Assembly: GCA_030066985.1 (NCBI GenBank)
Contig: JASJAN010000045.1
Coordinates: forward strand, 1 to 35,910
Length of the DNA stretch: 35,910 bases
Direction: 5' to 3'
Source of the DNA: Desulfobacterales bacterium
GTDB taxonomy: Bacteria; Desulfobacterota; Desulfobacteria; Desulfobacterales; JAHEIW01
Every line of letters starts with the position of its first letter. The first letter of the stretch is position 1. A program made the position numbers and the translations under genes. Below, one piece after another: positions 11,891 through 14,460 of this stretch. A model generated the notes under the pieces. The model did no database searches. It was not told where the DNA came from and was given only the letters and a program-made list of their open reading frames with translations.

Positions 11891-12382
11891 ATGAAGATTA
11901 ACCCGGAGCTGGCTTCGCCCTGCGGCCTGTATTGCGGTGTGTGTGCCATTTATATCGCCCATCGCGATAACAATCAAAAATTTAAGGAACGACTCGTGGC
12001 ACTGTATAAAGGGGGCGTTCCCGGTAAAGGCACCCTGCCGAACAGTGAAAACCTTTCACTTGAAGATATGCAATGCGATGGGTGCATGTCCGATAATCGG
12101 TTTATGCACTGCCAGCAGTGTGAAATCCGTGACTGCACCCAGGAAAAAGGCTACAGCGGGTGTCATCAATGTGATGAATTTCCATGTGAGCATATTGAAA
12201 ATTTTCCGATGATGGTTGGCAAAAAAGTGATTTTAAGAGCCGTTCATTATAGACGCGAAGTCGGTACGGAAAAATGGATCCAGGATGAAGAAGCCCGTTA
12301 TTTTTGCCCGGATTGCGGCAACAAGGTTTTCAGAGGGGCTGTCAAATGTAATCGGTGTAAAAGCATGCTGGACCTGGATTAG
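11891..12382 (+). CDS. DUF3795 cysteine-rich protein
   Basis: A 163-residue cytosolic protein with 15 cysteines. The opening SPCGLYCGVCAIY is the signature of DUF3795. Further pairs are MQCDGCM, HCQQCEIRDC, GCHQCDEFPC and a C-terminal zinc ribbon FCPDCGNK … CNRCKS. The cysteines suggest several zinc or iron–sulfur sites; the biochemical role is not known. A strong GGAGG lies ahead of the ATG. It ends 24 bases before the MerB-like selenoprotein candidate and is probably co-transcribed with it. It starts the GC-richer half of the window. Confidence 0.88.
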   Translation: MKINPELASPCGLYCGVCAIYIAHRDNNQKFKERLVALYKGGVPGKGTLPNSENLSLEDMQCDGCMSDNRFMHCQQCEIRDCTQEKGYSGCHQCDEFPCEHIENFPMMVGKKVILRAVHYRREVGTEKWIQDEEARYFCPDCGNKVFRGAVKCNRCKSMLDLD

Positions 12383-12406
12383 GTTTGCAGTCTCGGAGGG
12401 TAAAAA

Positions 12407-13153
12407 ATGAAAGAGCAAGTGTTATCCGTTACGGAAAACCAGTTTTCGGAAATCCCCAGGGAATCCTGGGCACAGCATGTTCAGCAAAGAGCATCGGAAT
12501 TACCAAAACTGCTCGACTTTATGACCGAAGATCATCATCTGATCCGTTATTTTGTGGTCAGGGAGCTGCCCCGCCTCGCAAAACCCATCCCGCCGGAGCA
12601 CATCGCTGAAAAATGTGACCTGCCATTATCAAAAACGACCGCGATTCTCGATGATCTGGAGAAGAATCTTTTTTTTCTGGTACGAAATGACAAAGGTGAG
12701 GTCCTCTGGGCCTATCCGGTTAGCGCTGACAAAACACCGCATCAACTGACGTTCAGCAGCGGCGAAAAAATTAATGCCGCCTGAGCGGTCGATGCCATTG
12801 CCACGCCCTTCGTGCAGGGGCACCTGCGAAAAAAATCGATCAGCGTAACAATCGATACGGTCTGCGCGCACAGTGATCAAGCGATACAAATCGTGATGGA
12901 CAGCGAAATGAACTACGAGGTCTACCAGGGAAATTGCACGCCTCACATCATCTCCCCCCTGGTGGATTGGGATTCGTTTTCAGCCCCCAATATCATCCCT
13001 GACTTCTGACAGAAATCAGTATTCTTCTGTTCAGAAGAACACGCCAGAGCGCATTTTGCAGCATCTGAACCGGTCAATGGGTTGGTTTTAAGCATCGATC
13101 AGGCGGTTTATTCAATACCGATCATCCAGGCCGCCCTGTTTGCATTTAGCTAA
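12407..13153 (+). CDS. MerB-like (organomercurial lyase family) protein, candidate double selenoprotein
   Basis: Read with TGA at 12782 and 13007 as sense codons, this is a 248-residue protein ending at TAA 13151–13153. GGAGG lies 7 bases before ATG 12407. Residues about 35–105 form a winged-helix-like N-terminal domain (DHHLIRYFVVRELPRL … LPLSKTTAILDDLE) as in MerB. Next come SSGEKINAA-U126-AVDAIATPF, matching the MerB CALD catalytic Cys96/Asp99 (Asp129 here), a TGC Cys at 153 matching Cys117, and NIIPDF-U201-QKSVFFCSEEHA, matching Cys159. MerB cleaves the carbon–mercury bond using these cysteines and Asp. The frame is otherwise intact and each TGA is followed by a SECIS-like hairpin. The alternative is a pseudogene with two nonsense mutations. 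No merA, merR or merT lies nearby, so the substrate may not be organomercury. Confidence 0.8.
12785..12828 (+). promoter_or_regulatory. Candidate bacterial SECIS for the first TGA
   Basis: Downstream of TGA 12782–12784, GCAGG (12814–12818) pairs with CCTGC (12823–12827) around the loop GGCA. A weaker alternative is GTGC/GCAC. The loop G lies about 34 bases after the TGA, near the upper limit of the range usually allowed for bacterial SECIS elements, with G in the first loop positions as expected. Confidence 0.5.
13010..13039 (+). promoter_or_regulatory. Candidate bacterial SECIS for the second TGA
   Basis: A perfect 7-bp stem TTCTTCT (13022–13028)/AGAAGAA (13033–13039) closes a GTTC loop. 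The loop G is 20 bases after TGA 13007–13009 and is followed by T, as in the GU of the E. coli formate dehydrogenase SECIS. It lies wholly inside coding sequence, as bacterial SECIS elements do. Confidence 0.6.
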
Positions 13154-13707: not shown

Positions 13708-14460
13708 ATGGCAGAGCATAGTGCGCAAATTAAAGCCTTGATCGAATTGCATCGCGGTCTGGAGCGCCAGGGCCCGGGTGATCCGTCATTTTCAGAACAC
13801 ATCTTATCCCTGCTGCCGGAATTGCCGCCCAAACCCCGCATTGTCGATCTTGGCTGCGGTGCCGGAGCCGGGGCCCTGATTCTGGCCAAATGGTTTAAAA
13901 CCCAGATCATTGCGGTCGATTTTTCAGGCCCTTTTCTGGAAGACCTGAAAGACTTTGCCAAAGCGCAGGGCCTGGATCACCTGATCGAAACCGTTGAGGC
14001 CGATATGGGAAGCCTTGACTGGCGGCTGGCCAGCGTCGATCTGTTGTGGTCGGAAGGCGCCGCCTATAACCTGACATTTGAGGGCGCTTTAAATACCTGG
14101 CGCCCCCTGCTGGCCCCCGGCGGCCTGGCGGTCATCTCGGAAATCAACTGGTTCACCGATCAGATACCGCAGCCGGTCTTAGACTTCTGGCAGGCGGCGT
14201 ACCCGCAAATTGCCAGTGAAAGCGAAAACGCCAAACTGGCACGCCGCAGCGGATTTGAGGTGCAGGGCGTCCATCGCCTGCCCACCCAGGCCTGGTGGAC
14301 ATACTACTACGAACCGCTGAAAGACCGCATGGATGCGCTGCGGCCTGCAGCCGACCCGGTTATGCAGGGGGTCATCTCCGAAACCGAGTCTGAAATCGAA
14401 TTTTTCGAAAAATACAGCGACAGTTACGGCTACTCATTTTATTTGCTGCAAGCTGTTTAG
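13708..14460 (+). CDS. Class I SAM-dependent methyltransferase
   Basis: 250 residues with a Rossmann-type methyltransferase fold. Motif I is RIVDLGCGAGAGALILAK (about residues 44–61). The acidic end of the second strand is IIAVDFSG and motif IV is DLLWSEGAAYNL. The N terminus (IKALIELHRGLERQGPG) is typical of the small-molecule methyltransferase group in deltaproteobacteria; the substrate is not predictable. AGAGAGGA precedes the ATG at 13708. An 18-base gap separates it from the SGNH hydrolase, so they may be one transcript. Confidence 0.9.
   Translation: MAEHSAQIKALIELHRGLERQGPGDPSFSEHILSLLPELPPKPRIVDLGCGAGAGALILAKWFKTQIIAVDFSGPFLEDLKDFAKAQGLDHLIETVEADMGSLDWRLASVDLLWSEGAAYNLTFEGALNTWRPLLAPGGLAVISEINWFTDQIPQPVLDFWQAAYPQIASESENAKLARRSGFEVQGVHRLPTQAWWTYYYEPLKDRMDALRPAADPVMQGVISETESEIEFFEKYSDSYGYSFYLLQAV

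Follow-up and report, generated by a model that had tools for sequence, protein, structure and literature searches.

In the organomercurial lyase MerB, Cys96, Cys159 and Asp99 encircle the mercury, and Asp99 participates in proton transfer, according to a passage of PMC4525700. A MerB-related selenoprotein has also been described, namely SaoL (NF040728), a MerB-like lyase for organometals that belongs to the SAO system. According to Table 1 of PMC13188914, the single selenocysteine (Sec) of SaoL lies in a CU motif; the protein is named after a Sec-assisted organometallic system. Among the entries of the 2026 prokaryotic selenoprotein inventory, which counts 119 families or subfamilies, this one-Sec protein is the sole MerB representative (PMC13188914). 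Two Sec residues are listed in Table 1 of that inventory for MbdU (NF045648) and for the putative mercuric reductase-related family NF041115, both linked to metals by their names. A MerB with two Sec residues is not named in titles and abstract openings on selenium together with organomercurial lyase or methylmercury demethylation, and term searches of the text of PMC2398784, PMC5029168, PMC12013277, PMC9312934, PMC11639659 and PMC8261052 did not find one. Two publications by Haft, which treat SaoL and double selenoproteins, lie outside this literature scope and may mention such a protein.

Herein, a gene of this kind is described from a Desulfobacterales bacterium (GenBank assembly GCA_030066985.1, contig JASJAN010000045.1, positions 1 to 35,910; this whole stretch of 35,910 nucleotides is called the window). 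A single forward frame of 248 codons leads from ATG 12407 to TAA 13151-13153, and its sole interruptions are TGA codons 126 and 201 (Table 1), as an earlier note on this DNA had observed. The note read both codons as selenocysteine, a proposal now supported by complete Sec machinery in the host, conservation of the TGA columns, hairpins 3' of the codons and the modelled MerB fold. The double-selenocysteine reading is consequently regarded as close to certain. From sequence and structural modelling, we infer a real double selenoprotein of MerB fold, into which the cell would insert Sec at both sites.

Table 1. Features of the MerB-like locus, with positions in the window.
Feature	Position	Strand	Details	Basis
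DUF3795 gene, directly upstream	11891..12382	+	24 bases between it and the MerB-like gene	Neighbour comparison
Shine-Dalgarno-like GGAGG	12395..12399	+	Ends 7 bases before ATG	Sequence
Gene of the predicted double-selenocysteine MerB-like protein	12407..13153	+	248 aa, U126 and U201	Frame, PF03243, relatives, modelled fold
TGA codon 126, predicted selenocysteine	12782..12784	+	MerB Cys96 position	Frame and alignment
Asp129 codon GAT	12791..12793	+	MerB Asp99 position	Alignment
SECIS-like hairpin, site 1	12805..12821	+	Stem 12805-12810/12816-12821, with one G-U pair; loop CGUGC 12811-12815	Frozen codons, pair counts, stability tests
TGA codon 201, predicted selenocysteine	13007..13009	+	MerB Cys159 position	Frame and alignment
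SECIS-like hairpin, site 2	13022..13039	+	Stem 13022-13028/13033-13039; loop GUUC 13029-13032	Frozen codons, pair counts

Kinship with MerB and SaoL

With Cys written for each TGA, the protein matches the MerB family PF03243 at E 4.9e-13 (49.6 bits against a gathering cut-off of 27), and a direct match of the same profile to the DNA also exceeds the cut-off (32.9 bits). When the PDB was searched with the single sequence, no MerB was returned (best E 0.92), MerB being found by profile only: a profile of 19 members of subfamily B (defined below), this gene included, matched MerB2 (5c17, E 2.9e-8) and MerB (1s6l, E 4.1e-5). In the profile alignment to these structures, TGA 126 occupies the column of MerB Cys96, Asp129 that of Asp99, Cys153 that of Cys117 and TGA 201 that of Cys159, exactly the correspondence that the earlier note had proposed. 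Furthermore, an AlphaFold2 model built from 42 sequences reached a mean pLDDT of 94.5 and a pTM of 0.91. A Foldseek search with this model placed MerB or MerB2 at all of ranks 1-11 (best E 2.3e-12), and VIA-align superimposed it on MerB2 with Z 22.4, an rmsd of 2.5 and 15% identity across 206 residues. The fold that the model shares with the PF03243 structures 1S6L, 3F0O, 3F2F and MerB2 5C17 extends over 194-206 residues with Z 20.1-22.4, and the catalytic columns Cys96, Asp99 and Cys159, together with the Cys117 column, line up. Identity to the solved structures, however, is only 15-16%, and both catalytic cysteines are replaced by predicted Sec encoded by TGA. Altogether, the PF03243 gathering score and the modelled fold assign the product to the MerB superfamily.

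Within this superfamily, the product falls outside both the canonical MerB and the SaoL families as defined by the NCBIfam cut-offs, scoring 37.7 of 193 bits with NF009710, 33.4 of 200 bits with NF033555 (both MerB) and 48.2 bits against a cut-off of 140 with NF040728 (SaoL). A SaoL-type Cys/Sec gene, L024, passes the last of these with 165.5 bits, and carries Sec at the second (Cys159) place only, whereas the present gene has TGA at both columns, in the residue contexts AAU and FUQ instead of a CU motif. In NCBIfam (June 2026), the matches of the product are limited to SaoL and the two MerB models, which separates it from MbdU and NF041115, and no model closer than SaoL was found for it. All 19 subfamily-B profile members match the same three models, with E values of at most 0.001 for both MerB models. 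Of the selenoproteins described so far, SaoL comes closest, and a double-Sec MerB is a new variant relative to NCBIfam and the entries of the 2026 inventory. The earlier note knew of no described MerB with two Sec residues.

Relatives, selection and gene neighbourhood

The two-TGA arrangement recurs widely. In the six genomes of the host's family, all six MerB-family matches (distributed over four genomes) contain two TGAs. The 389 genomes of the class yielded 63 MerB-family matches in 55 genomes, 49 of them (44 genomes) with exactly two TGAs, nine with no stop, four with one TGA and one with TAG. Fifty two-TGA genes were extracted, namely the 49 of the class set, with the present gene among them, and one more from the family set; in every one, the TGAs lie in the two catalytic contexts. 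These genes form clade A (n=7), clade B (n=19, including the present gene) and clade C (n=24), each with an SH-aLRT of 99, in a tree whose deep branches are weak and long and whose branching order is weakly supported at that depth. For the tree, clade B was supplemented with four Sec/Sec and two Cys/Sec genes, and the partial genes G341c and G367 were left out; G351 and G383 are not among the extracted genes. The match broken by TAG is G351:C1:5750353-5750547, and the short or partial one-TGA matches are G367:C1:5664254-5664550 (L076), G341:C347:22770-22940 (L075) and G383:C288:375-602. One of the four one-TGA class matches is intact, the SaoL-type L024, and none of the broken or partial matches examined belongs to subfamily B.

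The host genome itself contains a second MerB-like two-TGA gene on another contig, with the contexts WGN-U-VWD and GFT-U-ATI. This gene (G000:C16:73118-73489; L044:7903-8601, L010) belongs to subfamily A, and both of its TGAs are in catalytic contexts. In subfamily C, Sec (TGA) occupies both columns, and Glu stands at the Asp99 place in 23 of the 24 genes; L026, L028-L032, L064, L066-L071, L077-L081 and L083 are among its members. Glu at the Asp99 place also occurs in Cys/Cys genes (L018, L021, L022, L027).

In subfamily B, TGA is found at both columns in the present gene and in 18 of 18 Pfam-found relatives. A scan of named genomes, using search patterns that contained no TGA codons, gave 126 relatives of subfamily B. 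The best 80 were retained, and TGA stands at both columns in 77 of them; two have Cys followed by TGA (L130 and L140) and one is unreadable because of masking (L118). The 98 readable subfamily-B rows, from which one unreadable row was dropped and in which some genes appear from two collections, consist of 96 U/U and two C/U rows and nothing else, with Asp at the Asp99 place in all 98. In addition, the matched frame contains no TAA or TAG in the 79 readable relatives among the best 80 of 126. Both comparisons had been proposed in the earlier note as checks, of the homologue columns and of frame disruption in close relatives, and both went in favour of its reading. The hosts of the best 80 of 126 include Deltaproteobacteria/Desulfobacterales, Chloroflexi/Anaerolineae, Acidobacteria, KSB1, Rokuibacteriota, Bacteroidota, Nitrospirae and others, a phylum spread that is subject to possible binning errors, all 80 being MAGs. 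Judged from these sequences, double-TGA MerB-like genes are a large family across several phyla.

Substitution rates speak against a pseudogene. Compared with L087, the closest relative among the best 80 of 126, the gene has a dN/dS of 0.20 overall (0.17 before the TGAs, 0.17 between them and 0.47 in the short segment after them). The comparison with L088 likewise gives 0.20 overall (0.24 before, 0.18 between and 0.15 after), and with L089, where synonymous sites are saturated, the middle segment alone gives a value, 0.11.

The surroundings of the gene are less constant. The DUF3795 gene directly upstream, which encodes a cysteine-rich protein and may possibly be cotranscribed with the MerB-like gene, has kin that also precede the gene of L087, and that gene is likewise flanked by kin of the methyltransferase gene at 13708. 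Among ten neighbouring ORFs scanned with Pfam, the families found were DUF3795, methyltransferase, GDSL lipase, rhodanese, FMN reductase, radical SAM and HAD, and three ORFs had no match. No mercury- or SAO-type family was found among the ten: the lack of any mer-type family distinguishes the locus from MerB, and neither an ABC transporter nor another SAO-type Pfam family was among them. Across 80 subfamily-B loci (79 of the best 80 of 126 and the present gene), there is no conserved operon or partner gene. Seven of the 80 (L101, L117, L126, L132, L157, L159 and L160) have a MerR-family regulator immediately upstream, and six have a MarR regulator upstream, which in five of these is the adjacent gene. 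Identification of the seven as mercury-type MerR proteins was rejected, as their sequences do not contain what we take to be the usual mercury cysteine set of MerR. Similarly, 21 loci of subfamilies A and C showed no conserved operon, their top neighbours being two gene families present at three loci each.

Selenocysteine machinery and RNA signals downstream of the TGA codons

The host genome (5.07 Mb in 81 contigs) contains tRNA-Sec (75.2 bits), SelB (376), SelA (614) and SelD (356), all over cut-off; the complete set whose presence the earlier note had named as a check is accordingly found. The host selD match (G000:C48:37903-38817) has one in-frame TGA of its own. Among the 44 double-TGA genomes of the class set, tRNA-Sec is over cut-off in 32, among them all 19 genomes with a completeness of 90% or more and a contamination of no more than 5%. 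The 12 genomes with no tRNA-Sec match are all less than 90% complete, save those excluded for contamination.

Synonymous codon use points to RNA signals at both sites. In 78 subfamily-B genes (77 of the best 80 named-genome loci and the present gene), 93 columns of conserved amino acid were tested, and the mean z was 6.5 in the 19 columns lying at most 13 codons 3' of a TGA versus 0.83 in the other 74. The most strongly frozen codons are CCC UUC GUG CAA GGG at +8 to +12 of site 1 and UUC UUC UGG UCA GAA GAA at +5 to +10 of site 2. The effect also appears in the 19 Pfam-found subfamily-B genes, which were not picked by peptide patterns (mean z 3.1 in 18 columns versus 0.82 in 66), and in 24 subfamily-C genes (4.3 in 20 columns near the TGAs versus 0.69 in 93). 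In seven subfamily-A genes codon freezing is weak (0.93 near the TGAs versus 0.35 elsewhere). Separately, the Ser166 codon AGC (12902-12904), 40 codons past the first TGA, has a z of 9.1, a conservation above the prediction from codon use that is perhaps mere lock-in of the AGY box.

Base pairing was counted in two-TGA genes only, in 87 distinct sequences of 96, with positions numbered from the U of UGA; L118 was left out of the codon, SECIS and neighbour counts, and L130 and L140 of the SECIS counts. At site 1, pairs 25-39, 26-38, 27-37 and 29-35 are formed in 87/87 sequences, with a change from C-G to U-A at 25-39 in four. Pair 28-36 is present in 85/87, and 24-40 in 82/87, variously as G-C, U-A, C-G, A-U and G-U; the outermost pair tried, 23-41, forms in only 60/87. 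The loop CGUGC is found in 83/87. At site 2, pairs 16-33 to 22-27 are present in 85 to 87 of the 87, the innermost as U-A in 78, C-G in six and U-G in three. Further out, pair 14-35 occurs in 84/87 and 13-36 in 63/87, and 15-34 is a mismatch (11/87). The site-2 loop is GGUC in 84/87 and GUUC in three, one of which is the present gene. The SECIS of E. coli fdhF also has GGUC as its apical loop.

Folding energies support site 1, with a mean percentile of 0.24 (p 3e-12) and a mean z of -1.11 versus -0.21 in controls, windows that begin a few bases earlier being equally stable. Site 2 shows no unusual stability (percentile 0.49, p 0.81; z -0.10, p 0.77), and the case for its hairpin therefore depends on the frozen codons and pair counts. 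The two Cys/TGA relatives point in different directions. In L140, the site-1 hairpin codons have been lost and site 2 has been kept, and its close kin L134, with TGA at site 1, keeps both. L130 still has its site-1 hairpin codons, which would fit a recent change to Cys. Rfam gave no match in the window at the gathering threshold. Frozen codons and compensatory changes are what SECIS elements would need, and a putative SECIS is accordingly placed 3' of each TGA.

Predicted catalysis, alternatives and significance

From sequence and model, the protein is predicted to break the carbon-metal bond of organomercurials or other organometals, probably under anaerobic conditions. We give a probability of roughly 0.6 to a Sec/Sec organometal lyase acting on organomercury. 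In the proposed mechanism, SelB and tRNA-Sec would place a selenocysteine at each of the two UGAs with the help of a separate hairpin starting about 12 to 20 bases downstream. The selenolates of Sec126 and Sec201 would replace the MerB thiolates Cys96 and Cys159 and clamp the soft metal of the organometallic substrate, most likely methyl- or alkylmercury, and a proton from Asp129 at the Asp99 place would release the alkane. Two selenolates in MerB geometry would hold soft metals more tightly. As stronger soft nucleophiles that are reversibly oxidised, they would suit a low-substrate, sulfidic, anaerobic setting. In a chemical parallel, selones that mimic organomercurial lyase outpace their sulfur analogues in the cleavage of Hg-C bonds, according to a passage of PMC11639659.

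MerA is over cut-off in only one of the 44 two-TGA genomes, a further difference from MerB, and the classic two-step pathway is thus missing. Because MerA is nearly always absent, the released Hg(II) is proposed to pass to small thiols, selenide or sulfide, which would probably accept it. The host has HgcA (434 bits, over cut-off; G000:C35:82743-83720) and is probably also a mercury methylator. With HgcA presence taken as a best E below 1e-82 (a reading of the cut-off), which 164 of the 389 class genomes reach, it is found in 27 of the 44 two-TGA genomes versus 137 of the 345 others (Fisher p 0.009, uncorrected for kinship), and many hosts are probable methylators.

The substrate could instead be another organometal or organometalloid, with a double-Sec lyase of MerB fold acting on organic As, Sb, Sn, Pb, Se or Te compounds. 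The ten scanned neighbours without a mer-type family and the rarity of MerA agree with this alternative, as does the name of the one-Sec relative SaoL, taken from a Sec-assisted organometallic system (PMC13188914). So does the Glu at the Asp99 place in nearly all subfamily-C genes, and Ser99 in MerB-like proteins is discussed in a passage of PMC8261052 as a possible shift to general organic metalloid detoxification. The MerB-like Asp of every readable subfamily-B row and the many probable mercury methylators among the hosts weigh against it, and we consider another substrate class rather unlikely, if still a serious contender.

A double-Sec metal sensor or chaperone, which would bind Hg(II) or another soft metal through its selenolate pair and N-terminal winged helix with no C-metal cleavage, appears improbable. 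It draws on the structure comparison, where the matches below the MerB entries are mostly winged-helix regulators, some of them metal-sensing, all at Z < 6, and on the lack of a conserved partner enzyme at the loci compared. The winged-helix part, however, also aligns with the N-terminal domain of MerB itself, and pure binding would not obviously need the Asp that is invariant at the Asp99 place in the subfamily-B alignments.

Less probable again, and hardly to be expected, is a MerB-derived oxidoreductase in which Sec would serve redox or peroxide resistance, the two selenols forming a diselenide. Uncharacterised selenoproteins are mostly thought likely to be redox proteins (section 7 of PMC13188914), but conservation here extends to Asp129 and the remaining catalytic columns of MerB, and the residue contexts of the two TGAs, AAU and FUQ, give no UxxC or CxxU motif. 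Finally, a pseudogene, a sequencing error or another genetic code (code 4) would account for two in-frame stop codons under table 11 and can be dismissed almost outright: the identical two TGAs occur in many genomes assembled separately, far beyond the chance hits that the earlier note had already thought unlikely for random nonsense mutations at exactly these codons, dN/dS is about 0.2, hairpins follow the TGAs, and TGA is also an ordinary stop there, as it ends 12 of the 44 ORFs counted in the window.

It is unusual that, in the predicted organomercury lyase, two predicted selenocysteines stand in for the entire pair of catalytic thiols and are kept in several phyla. The existence of Sec/Sec, Cys/Sec and Cys/Cys forms provides a natural experiment on the gain that selenium brings to C-metal cleavage. 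Such genes are easily overlooked, as gene calls stop at the first TGA and one merB survey used a search model made from sequences selected by Cys96 and Cys159 (a passage of PMC9948709); surveys of mercury breakdown probably miss them. In a survey covering 80,925 bacterial genomes, the main text holds no word starting with selenocyst (PMC8261052). A more far-reaching proposal, offered tentatively and more doubtful than the lyase activity itself, is that a hidden family of selenium-dependent organomercury lyases may be one of the main pathways by which methylmercury is degraded in anoxic sediments, operating without MerA. If this were true, two-selenolate cleavage of methylmercury would take place in cells that frequently also methylate mercury through HgcA, and the family could explain part of the demethylation now called non-merB. 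The role of MerB in cells without MerA is posed as a question in a passage of PMC8261052, and the double-Sec MerB-like family makes this question directly testable in anaerobes.
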